A stretch of DNA of 64,000 nt from Acidimicrobiales bacterium (GTDB lineage: Bacteria > Actinomycetota > Acidimicrobiia > Acidimicrobiales > DATDAH01), in contig JAEUJM010000018.1 of NCBI GenBank assembly GCA_016794585.1, positions 1 to 64,000 of the forward strand, written 5' to 3'. Positions 1 to 61,785 of this stretch are shown piece by piece. The notes below the pieces were generated by a model. It saw only the letters and a program-made list of their open reading frames with translations. It had not been told where the DNA came from and searched no databases. The translations under genes and the position numbers were made by a program. Positions within the stretch are counted from its first letter, which is position 1. The number at the start of each line of letters is the position of its first letter.

Positions 1-282
1 GGGCTTGTCCGAGCGGCCGAAGCCGAGGTGGTCGGGGGCGACCACCCGGTAGCCGTCGGCCACCAGGGGCCCGATCCAGTCCTTGTAGAGGTAGGCCCAG
101 CTGGGCTCGCCGTGCAGCAGCAGGAACGTGCCCCGCTCCTCCCCGGCGGCGATGCCGGCGGGCCGCTCGTCCACGTAGTGCTGGCGCAGGCCGTCGGGGT
201 GCTCGAAGTACCGGGGCGACCACTCCCAGCCGATACCGGCGAAGCGCTCGTCGGGGGTGCGCACGACGTCGACGCCAGCCAT
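1..282 (-). CDS. haloalkane dehalogenase-like hydrolase, N-terminal part
   Basis: The first 94 codons of an alpha/beta hydrolase that runs off the left edge. The visible part contains [10 protein letters not shown], the oxyanion/HGxP strand of subfamily I haloalkane dehalogenases, then a [11 protein letters not shown] turn. The catalytic Asp and His would lie outside the window. Its N-terminus ([11 protein letters not shown]) closely matches the paralogue at 4346 (VDVLRTPDERF). The ATG follows the DinB-like gene by 8 bases, so it is the last visible gene of a minus-strand operon (lipoprotein, DinB-like, this). By family it would cleave carbon-halogen bonds of small haloalkanes in the cytoplasm; the true substrate is unknown. 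Confidence 0.8.
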
Positions 283-290
283 GGGGCGAG

Positions 291-893
291 CTACGACGTC
301 ATCCCGCCGAGGCCGACGAGGCCCCGGGCCAGCTCGATCTCGCCCATGTGGCGCAGGCCGTGCTGGTAGTGCCAGCACTCGAAGCCGTCGAGCACGGTGA
401 TGCCCTGCGGGCCGGCGCAGCGGGCGCTGTAGGTGCTGGCCACCTGCGGTGGGTACGGCGGGGCGATCAGCACCCGGGTGAGGTCGGCGGGGTCGATGGC
501 GGCGAGGTGCGCCTCGGTGCGGTCGAACACGGTGCGCTGGTACTCCTTGAACGCCTCCCAGTCACCCAGGCGCTGGTGGACCATCTCCTCGACCGTGCGG
601 TGCTTGCCGTGGTCGTTGATGGTGGGCTTGACCCGCTCGTACCACTCCTCGTTCCAGACCGGCATCTCGCCGGTGATGACCATGAAGGTGGAGTCCTCCA
701 TGTTCGTGTAGTGGAACAGCGAGAACGCGATGGGCAGCACGCCCTCGCGCTCGAAGTGGTTGACGTGCTCGAGGCCCATCGAGCCGACGGCCTGGTAGTA
801 GAGGCCGTGCATGGTGGCCATGCGCCGGCGGAGGCTGTCGAGCAGCAGGTCGGCGGGAGGGGCGGCGGTCGTGGCGGCGGTCGCGTCGGTCAT
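291..893 (-). CDS. DinB-like four-helix protein
   Basis: A 200-residue protein with no signal peptide. The C-terminal [14 protein letters not shown] and the mid-protein LFHYTN stretch resemble the metal-binding histidine helices of the DinB/YfiT superfamily, which includes thiol transferases and damage-inducible proteins. No specific reaction can be assigned. I chose the ATG at 893 because translation upstream of it is only the shadow of the lipoprotein gene. It starts 1 base after the lipoprotein stop and ends 8 bases before the haloalkane dehalogenase start, so the three are probably co-transcribed. Confidence 0.75.
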
Positions 894-894
894 G

Positions 895-1590
895 TCAGTT
901 CGCCTCCGGGGCGGTCGCTTCGAGCTCGTCGATGGTGGCACCCGGGTCGGCGTCGGCGTCGCCGATCTTGTCGAGCCGGGCGGTGAAGCCGAGGTAGTCC
1001 CACACCAGCTGGTCGCCGTCGCGGCGCCGGCGCACCTCCACGGGCAGGCCCACCGGGCGCAGCACGTGGACGCCGTCCTCGTAGGTGGCCACCACCGTGA
1101 TGGGCGTGGCGTAGTCCATCTCGGCGACGTCGTGGACGCCGTTCTCCTCGGTGCCGTCCACCCGCATGTCGTGGATGATCCCGCCGGCGGTGACGACGAG
1201 GCGGTCGCCGCACTGCTCGATGCGCTGCACCTTGCCGAGGGCCCGGTGGTCGGGGACGACCGCGCCGCCGGACTCGACCTCGACGATCTGCCAGAGGCCA
1301 CCCAGCTCGGGGGCCCCGTCGACGAGCGGCTGGGTGCAGCCGGCGAGGACGGGCGCGGGCATGGTCCCGTGCCACCCGCCCTCCGGAGTGTGGGCGACGG
1401 GGATGTCGTCGGCGGTCAGCGACGGGGCGCTGGTCGCCGGGCTGGCGGTCGTGGACGGCCCACCGGCCGCCGCTGCCTCGGTCCCCGGATCGCTCACGTC
1501 GTCCCCCTGTCCGCCGCACGCGCTGAGCGCCAGCACCACGGTCAGCGCCACGGTGCGGACGGCGACGCCTGCGGCTCGTTCCACTTGCAC
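895..1590 (-). CDS. putative lipoprotein of unknown function
   Basis: A 231-residue protein that starts with GTG. The N-terminus has a hydrophobic segment ending in LSACGG, a lipobox, followed by a low-complexity Ala/Thr/Ser-rich linker and a globular domain of about 180 residues. It should be exported and lipid-anchored on the outer face of the membrane. I do not recognise the domain. It is the first gene of the minus-strand operon that continues with the DinB-like protein and the left-hand dehalogenase. Its position suggests a substrate-contact or surface role beside cytoplasmic catabolic enzymes, but that is inference. Confidence 0.7.
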   Translation of the reverse strand: MQVERAAGVAVRTVALTVVLALSACGGQGDDVSDPGTEAAAAGGPSTTASPATSAPSLTADDIPVAHTPEGGWHGTMPAPVLAGCTQPLVDGAPELGGLWQIVEVESGGAVVPDHRALGKVQRIEQCGDRLVVTAGGIIHDMRVDGTEENGVHDVAEMDYATPITVVATYEDGVHVLRPVGLPVEVRRRRDGDQLVWDYLGFTARLDKIGDADADPGATIDELEATAPEAN

Positions 1591-1599
1591 AGGCTAAGT

Positions 1600-1620
1600 A
1601 TTGTCACTACCTTTGTCAAT
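1600..1620. promoter_or_regulatory. candidate operator between divergent operons
   Basis: The short control region between the lipoprotein (-) and DUF2855 (+) genes is AT-richer than its surroundings. It contains TTGTCA at 1601-1606 and again at 1613-1618, exactly 12 bases apart. The same 21 bases also form an imperfect inverted repeat, ATTGTCA and TGTCAAT around a 7-base spacer. On the minus strand this supplies TTGACA as a possible -35. A plus-strand promoter of TTGCAC (1585-1590), 17 bases, then TACCTT (1608-1613) is possible but weak. A dimeric repressor site serving both operons is the simplest reading. Confidence 0.45.
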
Positions 1621-1658
1621 TGTCTCGTCGTGTGATGCCGAGCCGTTGGGGGAGCGTC

Positions 1659-2756
1659 GTGGATCTCGAGGTCGATCGCAGCCACCTGGACCGGGTGCAG
1701 GTACGTGATGAGCCGCCGGCGCCCCTGGCCGACGGCGCCGCCCGCATCGAGGTCGAGCAGTTCGCGCTGTCGGCCAACAACATCAGCTACGCGGCCTTCG
1801 GCGACCTGCTGCGCTACTGGGAGTTCTTCCCCGCGCCGGCCGGCGCCGACGGCACCCCCTGGGGGCGCATCCCGGTGTGGGGGTACGGCCGGGTCGTCGA
1901 GAGCCGGTGCGACGAGCTGGCCGTCGGCCGGCGCGTCTTCGGCTACCTGCCGATGTCGTCCGAGGTCACCTTCACCCCGGGGCGCTTCGACGAGCGCGGC
2001 TTCACCGACCTCGCCGCCCACCGGTCGGGCATGGCCGCCGCCTACAACCGGTACGTCTTCGTCGACGCCGACCCCTCCTACCGGGCCGACCGGGAGGGCC
2101 ACCACCTCCTGCTCTACCCCCTGTTCTTCACCGCCTTCGTGGTGGACGACTTCCTCGACGACAACGACGACTACAGCGCCGAGCAGCTCTGGATCTCCAG
2201 CGCCTCGGCCAAGACGTCGATCGGCATCGCCTTCCTCGCCCGCCAGCGCCAGGCGGCGACGGTGATCGGGCTCACCTCCGAGCGCAACCAGGCCTTCGTC
2301 GAGGGCCTGGGCATCTACGACCGGGTCGTGACGTACGACGAGGTGGCCGAGGTCGATCCGGCGCCCGCCGTGTACGTCGACATCGCGGGCAACGACGACG
2401 TCACCCGTGCGGTCCACACCCACCTGGGCGACGCCCTCGCCTACAGCATGCGCGTCGGCGGCACCCACTGGGACCACCAGGCCGGTGCGCCGCCGGCCGA
2501 GGGACTGCCCGGGCCGACGCCCGAGTTCTTCTTCGCCCCGAACCAGCTGGCCAAGCGGTCCCACGAGTGGGGCCAGGACGAGCTCGACGCCCGCATGGGT
2601 GCGGCATGGTCCACCTTCGCCGACTGGATCGACGGCTGGCTGCGCTTCGAGCGCGCCGAGGGCCCCGAGGCAGTCGAGGCCGCCTACCGGTCGCTGCTGA
2701 CCAACGAGGCCGACCCCGCCACCGGCCACCTCTGCACCCTGGCCCGCGCCGACTGA
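1659..2756 (+). CDS. DUF2855 family protein
   Basis: A 365-residue protein matching the DUF2855 family as I know it: an MDR-like fold with the early motif SANNISYAAFGD and a central LWISSASAKTSIGIAF nucleotide-binding-like strand. The family is distantly related to quinone oxidoreductases but has no proven reaction. I chose GTG at 1659 because GGGGGAG (1648-1654) lies 4 bases upstream; TTG 1620 and ATG 1635 are in frame but lack this. It is the first gene of a plus-strand operon with an SDR, a DUF1330-like protein and a haloalkane dehalogenase, so a redox step in the same catabolic route is likely. Confidence 0.75.
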   Translation: MDLEVDRSHLDRVQVRDEPPAPLADGAARIEVEQFALSANNISYAAFGDLLRYWEFFPAPAGADGTPWGRIPVWGYGRVVESRCDELAVGRRVFGYLPMSSEVTFTPGRFDERGFTDLAAHRSGMAAAYNRYVFVDADPSYRADREGHHLLLYPLFFTAFVVDDFLDDNDDYSAEQLWISSASAKTSIGIAFLARQRQAATVIGLTSERNQAFVEGLGIYDRVVTYDEVAEVDPAPAVYVDIAGNDDVTRAVHTHLGDALAYSMRVGGTHWDHQAGAPPAEGLPGPTPEFFFAPNQLAKRSHEWGQDELDARMGAAWSTFADWIDGWLRFERAEGPEAVEAAYRSLLTNEADPATGHLCTLARAD

Positions 2757-2793
2757 ACGACCCACCAACCGACGACACGAGGGAACGAACGAG

Positions 2794-3609
2794 ATGCAGC
2801 TGGACGGACGAGTGGCCGTGGTGACCGGAGCGGCCTCGGGCATCGGGCGGGCCATGAGCGAACGGTTCGTGGCCGAGGGCATGTCGGTGGTCATGGCCGA
2901 CATCGAGGGCGACAAGCTGAAGGGCGTGGCGGACGAGCTCGCCGCCGCGGGCGCCGCCGTGCACGCGGTCGAGATGGACGTCGCCGACGCTGACCAGGTC
3001 GAGGCCCTGCGGGACCAGGCCATCGCCAGCTTCGGGGCGGTCCACCTCCTGTGCAACAACGCCGGCGTGGGCTCGCCCCGGCCGAACGTGTCCACCAGCC
3101 CGGCGCTGTGGCGCTGGGTCACCGAGGTCAACCTGCTCGGCGTCGCGTACGGCGTGAGCGCCTTCGCCCCGCACTTCGTCGAGCAGGGCGAGGGCCACAT
3201 CGTCAACACCGCCTCCGAGGCCGGTCTCACCCCGTCGCCGCTCCTCGGCGCCTACCACGCCACCAAGTACGCGGTCGTGGGGCTGTCCGAGTCGCTGGCC
3301 CTCGAGCTGAACGGCACGGGCGTCGGCGTGTCCTGCCTGTGCCCCGAGCTGGTCGACACCCTCGTGTTCGAGTCCACCCGCAACGCGCCGGCCGAGCTCG
3401 GCCTGGGCGACCCGCCGCCGGTGGACATCCACCAGGTCGAGCAGTGGATGCAGACCGTGGCCATGGATCCGGCCGACGTCGCCGCCGACGTCGCCTACGC
3501 GGTGAAGGCCGGCCGCTTCTGGGTGCTCACCCACCAGTCCACGCTCGACCGCGTCAAGCGCCGCAACGCCGACCTCGAGGCCGGCCGCATCCCGAGAGGT
3601 GTCCGATGA
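2794..3609 (+). CDS. short-chain dehydrogenase/reductase
   Basis: A 271-residue SDR, the usual family length. Rossmann motif TGAASGIG is at residues 11-18, NNAG near 88-91, and the catalytic triad is visible as S141, Y154 and K158 (YHATK). An acidic residue at the end of the second strand (ADIEG) favours NAD(H) over NADP(H). It should oxidise or reduce an alcohol/ketone in the cytoplasm. It lies 37 bases after DUF2855 and overlaps the next start by ATGA, so it is translationally coupled to the DUF1330-like gene and in the same operon as the dehalogenase. An alcohol released by dehalogenation is a logical substrate, but that is inference. Confidence 0.85.
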   Translation: MQLDGRVAVVTGAASGIGRAMSERFVAEGMSVVMADIEGDKLKGVADELAAAGAAVHAVEMDVADADQVEALRDQAIASFGAVHLLCNNAGVGSPRPNVSTSPALWRWVTEVNLLGVAYGVSAFAPHFVEQGEGHIVNTASEAGLTPSPLLGAYHATKYAVVGLSESLALELNGTGVGVSCLCPELVDTLVFESTRNAPAELGLGDPPPVDIHQVEQWMQTVAMDPADVAADVAYAVKAGRFWVLTHQSTLDRVKRRNADLEAGRIPRGVR

Positions 3610-4343
3610 GCGAACGTCGAGGGCCGAGCTACGGCACCCCGAACTTCGAGATGATCAGCCGCTGGTTCCAGCTGCCTCCCGAGGACGACACCCCCTTCTG
3701 GGCCGTCAACCTCATGAAGTACAAGGCGCGGGCGGACTACGGCGACGACGGGGACCAGGGCCGCACCGGCCGCGAGGCCGACGACGCCTACACGCCCTAC
3801 GGCCCGCTGGCGGAGATCGGCGCCATGATCGCCTTCGCCGGCGACGTCGTGGAGCAGCGGGGGAGCAGCCCCACGTGGGACCGCATCGGCATCGTGCGCT
3901 ACCCGCACCGCGCCGGGTTCTTCGCCATGCAGCAGCGCGACGACTTCAAGGACCAGCACGTCCACAAGGAGGCGGGCATGGAGGCGACCATCGTGATGTC
4001 GTGCCTGCCGGTCGAGGGGGCGCCGCTCGCGGCCACCCCCGACGGCGGCACGGTGGTGCTGCGGGTACGACGCTTCCCCGGCGAAGCGCCCGCCGACGAG
4101 CGGCTGCCCGACGGGATCACCCCGCTCAGCCGCTTCGCGGTGGAGGGCGTGATCGTCGGTGACGACCGCACGTGGCACGAGGTCCGCTTCGACCACGTGG
4201 CCGAGGGCGCCGACGGCGAGGCGCTGCTCGACCTCGCCGGCACGGAGGAGGGCTTCGCCGTCGTGGTGACGCCGACGGCCCCGTACGACCGGCTGGTCGA
4301 GTCCATCGAGACCGCCGACGACGCACCGAAGCGGGAGGCCTGA
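3606..4343 (+). CDS. DUF1330/ABM-like protein of unknown function
   Basis: A 245-residue cytoplasmic protein. The N-terminal half has VNLMKYKARADY followed by a YGPLAEIGAMIAFAGDV stretch, which resembles the dimeric alpha-beta barrel of DUF1330 proteins. The C-terminal half looks like a second, diverged copy of the same fold, but I cannot prove this by eye. Function is unknown; ABM-fold proteins include monooxygenases and isomerases. It is embedded between the SDR (4-base ATGA overlap) and the haloalkane dehalogenase (2-base gap), so it is very probably part of the same pathway. Confidence 0.65.
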   Translation: MSERRGPSYGTPNFEMISRWFQLPPEDDTPFWAVNLMKYKARADYGDDGDQGRTGREADDAYTPYGPLAEIGAMIAFAGDVVEQRGSSPTWDRIGIVRYPHRAGFFAMQQRDDFKDQHVHKEAGMEATIVMSCLPVEGAPLAATPDGGTVVLRVRRFPGEAPADERLPDGITPLSRFAVEGVIVGDDRTWHEVRFDHVAEGADGEALLDLAGTEEGFAVVVTPTAPYDRLVESIETADDAPKREA

Positions 4344-4345
4344 CC

Positions 4346-5251
4346 GTGGACGTCCTTCGCACCCCTGACGAGCGCTTCGAGGGTCTGCCCGACTGGGACT
4401 TCGCCCCGCACTACGGGACGGTCACCGCGGCCGACGGCACCGAGCTGCGCTTCCACTTCGTGGACGAGGGCCCCCGTGACGCCGCGCCGATCCTGCTCCT
4501 GCACGGCAACCCGTCGTGGTCGTACCTGTACCGCCACATGATCCGGGGGCTCGCTGATCGGGGCCACCGAGTGCTGGCGCTCGACCTCATGGGCATGGGC
4601 CGCTCGGACAAGCCGACGGCCCGAAGCGACTACACCCTGGCCGCCCACGTCGACTGGGTGGGCCAGTGGCTCGAGGCCGAGGACGTCACCAGCGCCACCC
4701 TGTTCTGCCAGGACTGGGGCGGCATCATCGGGCTCTGCGCCCTGCGCGAGCACGGTGACCGGTTCGACCGGGTGCTGGCCTCGAACACCGGGATCCCCGT
4801 CGGCGAGGGCGTCAACGAGTTCATGCAACAGTGGCTCGACTTCAGCCAGGGCGTCGACGAGCTGCCCGTGGGCTCGCTGCTCGCCGGCGGCACGACCCGG
4901 CCGCTGTCGCCCGAGGAGCAGGCCGCGTACGACGCGCCCTTCCCCGACGGCTCGTATCAGGCCTCCCCGCTCCAGTTCCCCCTGCTCATCCCGTTGCAGC
5001 CCGACAACCCCGGGGTGCCGATGTGCGTCGAGACCTGGGCGTACCTCGAGACATGGACCAAGCCGTTCCTCACGGTGTTCGGCTCCGAAGACGCCATCTC
5101 CTACAAGCCCGGCGCCCACCGCAAGTTCCAGCGCCTGGTGCCGGGCGCGGCGGGCCAGTCGCACCAGGTGATCGACGGCGCCAACCACTTCATCCAGGAG
5201 GACGCCCCCGACGCGCTCGTCGAAATACTCGACGGGTTCGCGAGAGCCTGA
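4346..5251 (+). CDS. haloalkane dehalogenase, subfamily I
   Basis: A 301-residue alpha/beta hydrolase with the complete haloalkane dehalogenase set: HGNPSW (53-58), nucleophile D123 with halide-stabilising W124 in CQDWGG, acid D249 in FGSED, and catalytic H281 in GANHF. The reaction expected is hydrolysis of a haloalkane to an alcohol plus halide in the cytoplasm. GTG 4346 is chosen because it begins two bases after the previous stop and the resulting N-terminus matches the paralogue at 282. It closes the four-gene plus-strand operon. The DhlA-like acid position after strand 7 supports subfamily I. An ether or epoxide substrate cannot be excluded. Confidence 0.85.
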   Translation: MDVLRTPDERFEGLPDWDFAPHYGTVTAADGTELRFHFVDEGPRDAAPILLLHGNPSWSYLYRHMIRGLADRGHRVLALDLMGMGRSDKPTARSDYTLAAHVDWVGQWLEAEDVTSATLFCQDWGGIIGLCALREHGDRFDRVLASNTGIPVGEGVNEFMQQWLDFSQGVDELPVGSLLAGGTTRPLSPEEQAAYDAPFPDGSYQASPLQFPLLIPLQPDNPGVPMCVETWAYLETWTKPFLTVFGSEDAISYKPGAHRKFQRLVPGAAGQSHQVIDGANHFIQEDAPDALVEILDGFARA

Positions 5252-12804: not shown

Positions 12805-13704
12805 TCAGGCGCGGCGGTCGCGGCCGGCGGGCATCCAGTTGGGGCCGGCGGTGGCGTCGATGCGGGCCATGAGGGTCGGGCCGGCGGGCTCGACGAGGTC
12901 GAGGAAGGCCCGGGTGCGGTCCTCGCCGAGGTGTTGCCACGCCGCTGCGCAGAGTTGGTCGAGGCGGTCCTCGAGGCCTTGGCGGTAGGCGATGCCGTCG
13001 GCGTTGACGACCCCGTCCTCGGCGAGGCCCCGGCGTTCGAGCTCGGCCAGTGCCACGGTGAGGGCGTCGTCGTCGGCGCCGCGGCTGCGGGCCACCCAAT
13101 GGTCGTCGTAGGCCCGCCACGCACCGTCGAGCACGCCGGCCATGTCGCCCGTGAGGTCCTCGGCGATCTGGATGGCCCAGTGGGTGTCGCCTCGCCACTC
13201 TCGGACGCAGTTGACCGCCAGCCACGCCGACAGCAGCGGATCGTCGGCCGGGCGCGGCCAGGCCCGGTGGGCGGCGAACAGTGCCCGACCCGCGACGGGG
13301 AGCGCGTCGGCGGCGTCCCACAGCGGTTCCGCGAGCTCGGCCAGGCCGTCGCAGAGCTCGGGGACGTGGCGGCGCAGGCCGCCCACCACGGCCTCGTCGC
13401 GCACTCGGGCGGCCTCGGCGAAGGTCGTGTGCTGGCAGCAGAGGTCCAGCGAGACGGCCACGAAGGCGGGGTGGATGGAGTAGAAGGCGGCCGTCACGAC
13501 GTCGTTGCCCGCCGCTCCCAGCGGCGCCCCGCGTGACGCGATGTAGTAACCCAGGCCGTCGGGCACGCCGAGGTCGGCGTAGCCGGCGATGGCCTCCGGA
13601 TCCCAGTAGATCCAGCCCACGAGGCGGTGCGACGCCTTCCCGGCGCGGCGGCTCAGCTCGAGCCAGTCGGGGGCGGTCGTCGCGTCGGTCGAGGGCGGGG
13701 ACAC
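12805..13704 (-). CDS. SCO6745 family protein
   Basis: A 299-residue all-helical protein matching the SCO6745 family as I know it: an early ALHRLV-like segment (ASHRLVGWIYWDPEA), then GLGYYIASRGAPLGA and VVTAAFYSIHPAFV. The family is actinobacterial and has no established reaction. GTG start. It follows the TIGR03086 gene by 13 bases and is probably co-transcribed with it. Confidence 0.75.
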   Translation of the reverse strand: MSPPSTDATTAPDWLELSRRAGKASHRLVGWIYWDPEAIAGYADLGVPDGLGYYIASRGAPLGAAGNDVVTAAFYSIHPAFVAVSLDLCCQHTTFAEAARVRDEAVVGGLRRHVPELCDGLAELAEPLWDAADALPVAGRALFAAHRAWPRPADDPLLSAWLAVNCVREWRGDTHWAIQIAEDLTGDMAGVLDGAWRAYDDHWVARSRGADDDALTVALAELERRGLAEDGVVNADGIAYRQGLEDRLDQLCAAAWQHLGEDRTRAFLDLVEPAGPTLMARIDATAGPNWMPAGRDRRA

Positions 13705-35204: not shown

Positions 35205-37520
35205 TCAGGTGCCGATCGAGACCGACGTGACCGATCCCTGACGTTCGGCCGCCGGTAGTCCGGACCAGTCGGTGGTGTCGCGCGGCCCTGCGGCCGGCGC
35301 CACCGTGACCGGGATGCCGGTGAGGTGGGCCATGCCCGACGCCGGGTCGACGCCGTCGACCCCGTCGGCGGCCAGCAGGTTCACGTTCACGCCGCGGGTC
35401 TGCGAGGCCACCGACAGGCCGGTGGCGTGTTGGTGTCCCCAGCCATGGGGGAGCGCCACCGTCCCGGGGAGCAGGTCCTCCAGGAGGCGCACCGGGACCC
35501 GCACGGTCCCCGTCGCCGAGGTGACGTCGGCGACCGCGCCCTCGTCGAGGTCGAGGCGGGCCGCGTCGTCGGGGTGGACGTACAGGTGGTTCGTGTCGCC
35601 GTCGGGGCCGCTGACCATGCCGGGGTGGTTGTGGGTCCACGAGTTGTGGGTCTTGGTGCGTCGCTTGGTGATGAGCTTGAGCGTTCCGTCGGCGGCGCGT
35701 ACCTGCTCGGCGGCGAAGTCCGCCTCGAGCCGGTCGGCCCGCTCGACCAGGCGCTCGGGCGCGAGGTGCACCCGCTTGTCCCCGGTGACGATGCGCCCGC
35801 CGTCGCCGAGGAAGGTCCCGGCCTCGTGGCCGGCGCGGGCGAGGCCGTGGGGATGGGCGAGGAGCTTGGCGAAGCTCGGCTGCCGCGTGAGGCGGAGCAG
35901 CCAGGTCAGCAGGGCCTCCTGGGGCACCCGGCGTCCGGCGGTCGGGTCGACCTTGCGGCGCTTGCGGGTGTGCCGGTCGGTGGCCCGCTCCAGCGCCCGC
36001 TGGGCCACCTTCGACCCGAAGAGCCCGACCCCGCACGCCTTCGCCAGGTCGAGGTAGATGGTGGCCTCGTCGCGCTGCTCGCCCACCGTGTCCACGAGGG
36101 CCTCGGTGGCCTGGAGGTAGGGCCGGGACTGAAGGCCGAGCATCAGGGGGAAGATGAAAGGCAGGTCCGGCCGCTGCATCGGGTCGGTGGCGGGCAGGGT
36201 GAAGTGGGCCAGCGAGCCCGTCTCGTTGCGGTAGATGTCGACGGTCACCAGCAGGTCGAGGGACTCGAAGGCCTCGCGCAGCCGGCCGGCGTTGGCCATG
36301 GTGATCAACGGGTTCCCACCGGTCACGAACAGGGCCCGGACCTGGCGGTCGCCGGGGGTGAGGATCTCGTCGGCGAGGATCCCGCCCGGGTAGGCGTCGT
36401 TGACCTTGCGGAAGCCTCCGATGCGCGACGTGTCGTCCTTCATGAGGGTGCCGGTGCGGAGACCGAACTTGGCGAAGTCCATGACCCCCTTGCCCACCAG
36501 CGTGCCGCCGGGGCGGTCGAGGTTGCCCGAGACCGCGTTGATGACCTCCTGGAGCCAGAAGGCCAGCACGCCGTTGGTGCCCATGTTCACGCCGGTCGAG
36601 CTGTAGAGCGCGGCGCCGTCGGCCCCGCGGTAGGCGGCCACGAGGTCACGCAGCACTTCGGGTGTGATCCCCGTGACCTCCTCGGTGCGTTCGGGCGACC
36701 AGGGCGCCACCAGCTGCTCCACCTCGTCGAAGCCCGTGGTGTGGGCGGCCACCCGCTCGGCGTCCACGCCCCCGGCGGCCAGCAGCTCGTGGAGGAACGA
36801 GAGGTAGAAGAACACGTCGGTGTCGGGCCGGATGAAGACGTGGTCGGTCGCCACCCGCGCCGTCTCGGTGCGCCGGGGGTCGACCACGATCACCCGGCCG
36901 CCGCGGGCCTCGATCTCGCGGAGGCGCTTGGTGGGGTCGGGCACCTGGAGGAAGCTCCATTTCGACACCACCGGGTTGGCCCCGACGATGATCAGGCACT
37001 CGGTGCGGTCGACGTCGGGGAAGGGCTGGGTGAACGGGTAGCCGTACACCTCGCGGGCCGCGGCGAACTTGTTGGCGCAGTCCTGGGTGGCGCTGGCGTA
37101 CATCGAGGTCGACCCCAGGCCGTCCATGAACCCTTGGGCGAACACCGGGTGGAGCACCCCAAAGCCGGCGGCGGTGCCGACGTACATGGCCACCGAATCG
37201 GGGCCGTGCTCGTCGACGATGGCCCGCACCCGCCGGCCGATCTCGGCGTTGGCGTGGTCCCAGCCCACCTGCTGCCACCTGTCGCCGGTGCGCTCCATGG
37301 GGTGGGTGAGCCGGTCGGGTGACGTGTACATCTCGTGCTGGCGGATGCCCTTGATGCACGCGAACCCCCCGGTGGCCACGTGCTCGTCGTCCGGGCGGAT
37401 CTTCGTGATGGCCCCGTCCTCGACGGTGACCTCGAGCCCGCAGAGGGACTCGCAGATTCGACAGAACGTGTGGTGGGTCTCGGCGGCGCCCCCCGGGCCC
37501 CCCGTGGCGATGTCGGTCAC
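35205..37520 (-). CDS. molybdopterin-dependent oxidoreductase
   Basis: A 771-residue member of the bis-MGD (DMSO reductase) superfamily. C20, C23, C27 and C55 should bind an N-terminal 4Fe-4S cluster. MoCo-domain motifs SATQDCANKF, IIVGANPVVSKWS, VVDPRRTETA and the C-terminal molydopterin-dinucleotide domain (NHLYVHPDDAARL, HGWGHQHATG) are present. Substrate class (formate, thiosulfate, other) cannot be set. There is no Tat signal, so it is cytoplasmic. It is a single gene; the redox partner is not adjacent. GTG start. Confidence 0.85.
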   Translation of the reverse strand: MTDIATGGPGGAAETHHTFCRICESLCGLEVTVEDGAITKIRPDDEHVATGGFACIKGIRQHEMYTSPDRLTHPMERTGDRWQQVGWDHANAEIGRRVRAIVDEHGPDSVAMYVGTAAGFGVLHPVFAQGFMDGLGSTSMYASATQDCANKFAAAREVYGYPFTQPFPDVDRTECLIIVGANPVVSKWSFLQVPDPTKRLREIEARGGRVIVVDPRRTETARVATDHVFIRPDTDVFFYLSFLHELLAAGGVDAERVAAHTTGFDEVEQLVAPWSPERTEEVTGITPEVLRDLVAAYRGADGAALYSSTGVNMGTNGVLAFWLQEVINAVSGNLDRPGGTLVGKGVMDFAKFGLRTGTLMKDDTSRIGGFRKVNDAYPGGILADEILTPGDRQVRALFVTGGNPLITMANAGRLREAFESLDLLVTVDIYRNETGSLAHFTLPATDPMQRPDLPFIFPLMLGLQSRPYLQATEALVDTVGEQRDEATIYLDLAKACGVGLFGSKVAQRALERATDRHTRKRRKVDPTAGRRVPQEALLTWLLRLTRQPSFAKLLAHPHGLARAGHEAGTFLGDGGRIVTGDKRVHLAPERLVERADRLEADFAAEQVRAADGTLKLITKRRTKTHNSWTHNHPGMVSGPDGDTNHLYVHPDDAARLDLDEGAVADVTSATGTVRVPVRLLEDLLPGTVALPHGWGHQHATGLSVASQTRGVNVNLLAADGVDGVDPASGMAHLTGIPVTVAPAAGPRDTTDWSGLPAAERQGSVTSVSIGT

Positions 37521-37553
37521 CCCTGTGCTCCTGCTCGTCGGCTGCGGTCAGGG

Positions 37554-37559
37554 TAGACA
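37554..37559 (+). promoter_or_regulatory. -10-like element TAGACA before the DUF1295 gene
   Basis: TAGACA ends 6 bases before ATG 37566, the same spacing as other leaderless genes here. It supports ATG 37566 over GTG 37563. Confidence 0.35.
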
Positions 37560-37565
37560 GGGGTG

Positions 37566-38432
37566 ATGGGCGACACGGGATCGAGCGGGGCGGGTGTGTA
37601 CGTCGGGCCGAAGCGGGCGTTGTCCCGCCGGGCGTCGTTCGGCGTCGTGGCGATCGCCTACCTGCTCGCCCTCGTCGCCGGCGTGGTGTCCGGGGCGGTC
37701 GACGACGGCTCGCCCTACCTGGCCGTCGCCGCCGGGATGTTCGCCGGGACCGTGGTGATCTTCGTGTTCAGCCGCGCCGTGAACAACACGTCCATGTTCG
37801 ACGCCTACTGGAGCCTCGCCCCGCCCGTCGTGGCCGTCTACCTGGTGGTCGTCGCCGAGCCGGACGTGCCCGTGGTTCGCCAGGCGCTCGTGCTGCTGGT
37901 CGTGTTCGCGTGGGCCATCCGCCTGACCTCGAACTGGGCCCGCGGCTGGCCGGGCCTCGACCACGAGGACTGGCGCTACACCGCCATGCGCACCAACGGC
38001 CACCCGTACTGGGTGCAGAGCTTCTTCGGTTTGCACCTCGTGCCCACGATCGAGGTGTACGTCGGCTGCCTGCCGCTCGTGCCGGCGCTGGCCGTCGGCA
38101 CCCGGTCGCTCGGCGACGAGCAGTTGCGACGCTTCAACCGAACGAAGTCCCCGGGCGACATCTGCGACGTCGGCCTCTGGTCCTGGTCCCGGCACCCCAA
38201 CTACTTCGGCGAGCTCTGCTTCTGGTGGTCGCTGTTCCTGTTCGGCCTGGCCGCCGCCCCCGGCTACTGGTGGACCGTGCTCGGGGCGGTGTCGATCACG
38301 ATCATGTTCGCGGCGGCGTCCATCCCCATGCTCGAGAAGCGCAGCGCCGAGCGCCGGCCGGCCTGGGAGGCCTACCGGCGCCGCACCTCGGTCCTCGTCC
38401 CCCGTCCGCCCCGGTCGTCGGCACCCTCCTGA
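37566..38432 (+). CDS. DUF1295 (steroid 5-alpha-reductase-like) membrane protein
   Basis: A 288-residue integral membrane protein with about seven hydrophobic helices. The C-terminal GLWSWSRHPNYFGELCFWW is the signature of DUF1295/steroid 5-alpha-reductase-like and isoprenylcysteine methyltransferase-like proteins, where it forms the NADPH or cofactor site. It probably reduces a lipid double bond. It is convergent with the F420-type gene; CCTGA/TCAGG arms built from both stop codons form a weak hairpin between them. Confidence 0.8.
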   Translation: MGDTGSSGAGVYVGPKRALSRRASFGVVAIAYLLALVAGVVSGAVDDGSPYLAVAAGMFAGTVVIFVFSRAVNNTSMFDAYWSLAPPVVAVYLVVVAEPDVPVVRQALVLLVVFAWAIRLTSNWARGWPGLDHEDWRYTAMRTNGHPYWVQSFFGLHLVPTIEVYVGCLPLVPALAVGTRSLGDEQLRRFNRTKSPGDICDVGLWSWSRHPNYFGELCFWWSLFLFGLAAAPGYWWTVLGAVSITIMFAAASIPMLEKRSAERRPAWEAYRRRTSVLVPRPPRSSAPS

Positions 38433-61279: not shown

Positions 61280-61785
61280 GCCTTCGCCCCGAGCGCCCAG
61301 ATGACACCGTCGTCGCGGATCTCGACGTCGATGCGTCCGAGCGGCCGCGTCGGGGGGCCCGAGCGCACGGCGCCGGTGAGGGCTTCGAAGTTGCCCTCGT
61401 GGCAGGGGCAGTGCCAGCGCTGCTCGTCGGCCTCGAAGAACACCACGCAGCCGAGGTGGGTGCACTTCTGGCTGAACGCCACCACGTTCCGGTCGTCGAC
61501 CCGCAGCAGGACGGCGGGGTCGTTCTCGGTGGGGTAGCGGAAGAGGAAGGTGTCGCCCACGACCACGTCGTCCAACGGCACGATCGCCCTCGGTCGGCCC
61601 GCGTTGATGGTCCGCAGCTGGGTCCAGATGGCGAGCCCCACGTTGCCGGCCGCCATCACCCCGGCACCAGCCACGAGGTAGCGAGCGAACTCCCGGCGGG
61701 TCACCTCCTCCTCGGCCGCGGCCTCGTACGGGAAGTCGCGCTTCCAGATGGGCTGCGGGTCGGGGACGGGGGTGCCGGCGGTCAT
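61276..61785 (-). CDS. Rieske 2Fe-2S protein
   Basis: A 169-residue protein. C108-T-H110 (CTHLGC) and C126-P-C128-H129 (CPCHEG) form the Rieske cluster site, with C113 and C128 as the likely disulfide. [16 protein letters not shown] segment (about 29-44) is a twin-arginine-like signal or membrane anchor, so the cluster probably faces outward. It overlaps both neighbours by ATGA. It should pass electrons to or from the Mo enzyme and the ferredoxin-type protein. Confidence 0.88.

Follow-up and report, generated by a model that had tools for sequence, protein, structure and literature searches.

Why should two divergent operons each end in a dehalogenase-type gene, and what would such a pair of enzymes act on? 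The window analysed here covers the opening 64 kb of contig C18 (JAEUJM010000018.1) of an Acidimicrobiales bacterium whose genome (G000) totals 5.49 Mb. It opens with seven genes in two operons that both have a haloalkane dehalogenase (HLD) type gene as their last member: a lipoprotein-like protein (LP), a DinB_2 protein and HLDm on the minus strand, and a DUF2855 protein, a short-chain dehydrogenase/reductase (SDR), a DUF1330-like protein (D1330) and HLDp on the plus strand. The original prediction, made from the letters alone, took them for an undescribed catabolic cassette for a halogenated compound. We find that other genomes also group these genes, within a neighbourhood, apparently new to the literature, that centres on two formylglycine-type sulfatases, an HLD, a DUF1330-like protein and a TetR regulator and occurs in Acidimicrobiia and their relatives. 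These genes likely form a TetR regulon with a common candidate operator, of which the window is probably the dehalogenase half, the sulfatase half lying on contig C1 of the same genome. The arrangement first described is thus confirmed and the cassette idea supported and extended, while its interpretation is partly supported.

All seven genes lie where they were first placed, and the starts of LP (1590, minus) and DUF2855 (1659, plus) are separated by exactly 68 bases, the single region from which both operons had been said to diverge. The SDR ends four bases into D1330, and a scan of 1540-1720 for sigma-70 promoters and terminators found none. The features are:

1..282, minus strand: HLDm, haloalkane-dehalogenase-like alpha/beta hydrolase, cut at the contig end (remainder on G000:C4, about 37267-38049)
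291..893, minus strand: DinB_2 superfamily protein (PF12867, E 2.5e-6; weak match to mycothiol transferase family NF047843, E 5.4e-8, under cut-off)
895..1590, minus strand: LP, lipoprotein-like protein of no assigned family, with a lipobox-like LSAC
1602..1618, no strand: operator-like dyad TGTCA-N7-TGTCA, inside the 68-base divergent region
1659..2756, plus strand: DUF2855 protein, predicted zinc-free medium-chain reductase fold (PF11017, E 3e-105; model pLDDT 91.8)
2794..3609, plus strand: SDR (PF00106, E 1.4e-52)
3606..4343, plus strand: D1330, predicted to have two ferredoxin-like domains (model pLDDT 91.7; Z 12 to RPA0582; profile E 9e-16 to 3dca)
4346..5251, plus strand: HLDp, haloalkane dehalogenase of HLD-I type by family match (PRK00870, 387.8 bits; 5esr, E 1.7e-105)

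A sulfatase-dehalogenase neighbourhood

Searching named genomes for D1330 matched 183 stretches, of which 111 were confirmed and 80 kept; many contigs were short, and the gene counts for these 80 loci are lower bounds. An HLD is present in at least 27 loci and DUF2855 in at least 18, and clustering of the neighbours brought out, as minimum counts, sulfatase-1 (21 loci), a sulfatase-2 fused to a DJ-1/PfpI domain (15), TetR (17), a metallo-beta-lactamase-fold protein (MBL, 17) and SRPBCC (12). Single loci join the dehalogenase and sulfatase halves. Locus L079 has the order DUF2855-TetR-D1330-HLDp-sulfatase-1-HLDm, with DinB upstream on the opposite strand, and so holds both dehalogenases; L064 brings together sulfatase-2, sulfatase-1, MBL, DinB, TetR, D1330 and LP. 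An orthologue of the window SDR (62-67% identity) occurs in only two of the 80 loci, L085 and L094.

We quantified linkage by locating seven families across one set of 148 genomes from the order and counting pairs no more than 10 kb apart, with our own genome excluded; the SDR is the sole window-operon gene outside this test. D1330 rows below 104 bits, sulfatase-1 rows below about 800 bits and the second sulfatase-2 row of G137 were dropped before counting, two sulfatase-2 rows of G058 were treated as one, and expectations used rounded genome sizes, with a 3.3 Mb default for some genomes. HLD and sulfatase-1 were linked in 19 of the 38 genomes with both (0.31 expected), across 10 family labels, the latter count being the safer measure for genomes that share kinship. 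Linkage was likewise high for HLD with sulfatase-2 (10/27; 0.22 expected), for the two sulfatases with each other (13 of 25 genomes with both), and for D1330 with HLD (9/29; 0.25 expected) and with sulfatase-1 (10/24; 0.21 expected). The remaining pairs were D1330 with sulfatase-2 (7/23), DUF2855 (7/19), LP (5/17) and DinB (3/11); sulfatase-1 with DinB (8/16) and LP (7/18); and HLD with DUF2855 (5/27), LP (4/21) and DinB (3/22). All tested genes of both window operons are therefore tied to the sulfatase/HLD core, and the linkage is strong. Co-presence points the same way, D1330 and sulfatase-2 occurring together in 23 genomes against 6.1 expected. The original prediction had staked the cassette on linked genes in relatives and on related dehalogenases; overall both hold, yet in many genomes the genes are unlinked.

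Some loci reach further. L095, from a Dehalococcoidia (Chloroflexota) metagenome-assembled genome (MAG), has HLD, D1330, LP and sulfatase-1 together, with a dyad between LP and sulfatase-1; its composition extends the cluster beyond Actinomycetota. Downstream of the cluster in two loci (L079:14773-17784 and L088:3566-6789) lie another SRPBCC, a third PF00884 sulfatase and a 423-residue protein with no Pfam match. A 211-residue family with no Pfam or NCBIfam match (L097:4199-4831 and relatives) adjoins D1330 in 11 loci, and in L200 a member stands beside an HLDp relative of 70% identity. The window also encodes an HTH_67 family protein (12811-13704, minus), relatives of which occupy the place between HLD and SRPBCC in the L055, L058 and L065 clusters. 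A cultured relative, IMCC26256 (locus L084), has the D1330-HLD pair along with its dyad.

A candidate operator shared with the sulfatases

The 68-base region holds TGTCACTACCTTTGTCA at 1602-1618, a 17-bp dyad of the form TGNCA-N7-TGNCA whose position fits co-regulation of both window operons. A slightly relaxed form precedes DUF2855 in 15 of 20 loci (0.35 in shuffles), a count made on the very upstream regions from which the pattern had been read by eye; matrix scans are less circular tests. A 29-bp matrix was built from 22 sites, all from other genomes, and scanned over 324 kb of our own genome's sequence, picked for its genes and thus non-random. The window site at 1602 ranked first (30.5 bits), followed by sites directly before sulfatase-1 on C1 (26.9; C1:36005-36030), before the genome's second D1330 gene on C2 (21.5; C2:39802-39827) and before the SRPBCC-sulfatase-2 pair on C1 (16.9; C1:28313-28338); the fifth-ranked site scored just 7.5. 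Since the three sites after the window's own precede sulfatase-1, the second D1330 gene and SRPBCC-sulfatase-2, the window is probably one half of a split regulon.

Sites from outside the training set also stand before D1330, sulfatase-1, TetR, SRPBCC and DUF2855 genes in the named loci. Left out of the matrix, one of its training sites reached only 6.3; of the sites at or above 14 bits, roughly one in three is in an AT-rich genome or has no annotated gene start close by. A pattern derived from our own genome's four sites has 5 matches in its 5.49 Mb, four of them by construction; the fifth, at G000:C9:150371-150396, is unexplained. A dyad-like site also occurs upstream of an HTH_67 family relative in L131. 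The dyad would be the binding site of the TetR protein.

No PF00884 sulfatase lies inside the window, the closest on C18 being at 156628, and the genome as a whole has 24 PF00884 matches. Its orthologues of sulfatase-1 (70% identity, C1:33746-35977) and sulfatase-2 (64%, C1:28885-31437) both lie on C1, where a mycothiol-dependent-nitroreductase-like DsbA protein, an MDMPI_N protein and TetR (about C1:31510-32151) come after sulfatase-1, and SRPBCC stands before sulfatase-2. These two carry the CxPxR signatures CSPTR and CVPSR, with PF00884 scores of 240 and 124 bits; across the collected loci the signature is present in 17 of 21 sulfatase-1 and 13 of 15 sulfatase-2 proteins, and four of the six misses are fragments. 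An N-terminal hydrophobic stretch before the core rose above threshold in none of the 21 sulfatase-1 and none of the 15 sulfatase-2 sequences, so both enzymes are probably cytoplasmic. The nearest relative of sulfatase-1 is the Pseudomonas aeruginosa arylsulfatase, ahead of carrageenan sulfatases.

Two dehalogenases and their partner proteins

HLDm is a 94-residue fragment in the window, which opens at the start of C18; the end of C4 and the start of C18 are identical over 141 bases, and the joined gene encodes an intact protein of 307 residues. HLDp passes the NCBIfam cut-off for haloalkane dehalogenase (387.8 bits against PRK00870, cut-off 265) and has, as first claimed, a complete catalytic set (D123, W124, W163, D249, H281), the D-H-D/W-W combination by which, according to PMC8584953, HLD subfamily I is defined. 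The same five residues (D-W-W-D-H) are all present in HLDm, whose top PDB match is also 5esr (E 4e-50), and in 26 of the 27 further HLDs from the collected loci, the remaining one having Phe for the second Trp.

The original prediction read the two as paralogues from a common N-terminus. They are indeed true relatives, being homologous along their full length (37% identity over 309 residues, E 3e-52), but the RTPDERF N-terminus also occurs in other solved HLDs (5esr, 4mj3) and so marks the family, not a special pair. As a sign of recent duplication the common N-terminus is rejected, given this family-wide occurrence, the 37% identity and a tree that separates two lines, HLDm with the second HLD of L079, and HLDp with those of L077, L083 and L084 and the first of L079. 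L079 thus holds one orthologue of each window dehalogenase (67% and 69% identity). HLDp shares fold family, N-terminus and catalytic set with the subfamily I structures 5esr, 4mj3 and 6f9o, which we take to be DccA, DmrA and DpcA. It differs from them at position 55, where they have Glu and HLDp has Asn (as do 5 of the 27 other HLDs; HLDm has Glu, as do 21 of the 27), and in its placement in a putative sulfatase-linked regulon. Elsewhere in the genome (L199, G000:C43:119327-121342) a distant sulfatase adjoins an alpha/beta hydrolase that has 28% identity with an HLD.

The original prediction gave DUF2855 no known reaction, and our literature search found no publications on it. Its model, however, resembles in predicted fold the double-bond reductases that lack zinc (Z 24.0 to 9ji7 and to 1v3t, over about 300 residues). 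The resemblance to leukotriene B4 12-hydroxydehydrogenase/prostaglandin reductase 1 (1v3t, Z 24, rmsd 3.3, 301 residues) is one of overall fold at only about 13% identity, and does not imply activity. The earlier DUF1330-like label stands in part: the window protein matches no Pfam family, PF07045 included, at E up to 1, but weak DUF1330 matches are seen for 24 of its 46 aligned relatives (best E 1.2e-5), and the protein is named DUF1330-like only. Its first modelled ferredoxin-like domain resembles the DUF1330-related RPA0582 (PDB 3dca, 3hhl; Z 12.4, rmsd 3.0, 131 residues), again a likeness of fold that does not imply activity, and unlike RPA0582 it has a second such domain. LP matches neither Pfam nor NCBIfam; the lipoprotein signal is present in the window protein, as its label had it, but some relatives begin without one.

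A halogenated sulfate ester as candidate substrate

Since the strongest partner of the dehalogenases is a sulfatase, we hypothesize that the substrate is a halogenated sulfate ester; the halogenated part of the original prediction is kept, while a simple haloalkane becomes the less likely target. A molecule bearing sulfate esters along with several carbon-halogen bonds would suit this combination of sulfatases, SN2 dehalogenases, redox enzymes and mycothiol-type proteins, and the missing N-terminal hydrophobic stretch of the sulfatases suggests that small substrates are taken up whole. On balance we lean towards a regulon for intracellular breakdown of small compounds carrying both sulfate esters and carbon-halogen bonds, with algal chlorosulfolipids as the leading candidate. 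These lipids, according to PMC13413282, were first described from a freshwater chrysophyte and later from mussels, and are now detected in Pacific plankton samples; our search of the open-access literature turned up nothing on how bacteria degrade them. A TetR repressor would sit on TGNCA-N7-TGNCA before each operon and be released on binding substrate or product. The sulfatases would take off sulfate inside the cell, and the two HLDs would swap halogens for hydroxyl via an alkyl-enzyme ester on Asp. The SDR and the DUF2855 reductase could then oxidise or reduce the resulting alcohols, ketones and alkenes, while DinB and mycothiol proteins may handle halogens or electrophiles that resist hydrolysis. 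The word catabolic should be taken loosely, detoxification being an equally good fit.

Several results weigh against this proposal. The genome's own sulfatases are on a different contig from the window dehalogenases, so that the case for a joint role depends on the dyad and on what other genomes show, and PF00884 enzymes can cut esters other than sulfate. Full-length HLDm scores 228.7 bits against PRK00870, under the cut-off of 265, and is for this reason classed as HLD-like only. DUF2855 lies within 10 kb of sulfatase-2 in 0 of 17 genomes and of DinB in 0 of 11. As to the operator, the sequence scanned with the matrix had been chosen for its genes, and a covariance-type model searched genome-wide found nothing; with filters off, its E value was 0.079 for the window site, 0.3 for L068 and 1.8 for L198, the last outranked by an unrelated window site at 61397. 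We read this failure as a model too short for the program, yet it is a result against the operator.

How else could sulfatases and dehalogenases come together? The closest published parallel is the Zobellia ZGAL_234/235 locus beside a kappa-carrageenase, where, in the available part of PMC5613140, carrageenan induces an HLD-domain gene next to TetR, for which the authors propose a role in protection against halogenated compounds from algae. By analogy, the sulfatases could serve algal sulfate esters generally while the dehalogenases detoxify halogenated compounds released by the algae during the degradation of sulfated algal material. We consider such a defence unlikely: polysaccharide lyases and glycosidases are not among the ten recurrent neighbour clusters scanned, the sulfatases look cytoplasmic, and sulfatase-1 is closer to the P. 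aeruginosa enzyme than to carrageenan sulfatases. The Zobellia locus itself is a polysaccharide locus whose HLD domain resembles DbjA, and that part of the article describes neither a dyad nor a DUF1330-like partner.

Scavenging of sulfate esters from lipid sulfates such as those of sterols, where the HLDs would hydrolyse halogen-free substrates, would account for the SRPBCC proteins of lipid-binding type (12/80 loci) and SDRs that recur nearby, and for the SDR and third sulfatase among the L079 neighbours. We think it quite unlikely, as both halide-binding tryptophans are retained in HLDp, HLDm and 26 of the 27 other HLDs. A regulated set that likewise removes sulfate and oxidises the alcohol is the alkyl-sulfate (SDS) module of Psychrobacter SLF, which differs, as far as the accessible text of PMC10779009 goes, in its single alkyl sulfatase, its AraC-type regulator and an operon without a dehalogenase.

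A cassette that serves man-made haloalkanes, in line with the initial reading, agrees with the general knowledge that HLD-I enzymes are known from haloalkane degraders, but is very unlikely: it leaves the sulfatases unexplained, and the spread of the neighbourhood over 10 family labels and lake and marine MAGs, with HLDs 37-77% identical, points to an old natural role. That these are chance neighbours in gene-dense catabolic islands rich in sulfatases is most improbable despite the 24 PF00884 matches, because a genome carries roughly one member each of the sulfatase-1 and sulfatase-2 clades, whose linkage far exceeds what random placement would give, because DUF2855 shows no linkage to sulfatase-2 or to DinB, and because a common dyad precedes the cluster genes.

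We return, then, to intracellular breakdown of halogenated sulfate esters. Haloalkane dehalogenases are widely used as tools, and to our knowledge the natural substrates of many of them are unclear; a conserved HLD-sulfatase regulon in lake and ocean bacteria names a directly testable natural substrate class. More tentatively, and with some doubt, it may be the first gene system for bacterial chlorosulfolipid breakdown, a TetR-controlled sulfatase-dehalogenase regulon widespread in Acidimicrobiia. If chlorosulfolipids are the substrate, a gap in the fate of polychlorinated algal lipids would be filled and class I haloalkane dehalogenases would gain a natural substrate. Working hypotheses are gained, too, for DUF2855, with its predicted double-bond-reductase fold, and for the two-domain DUF1330-like family.

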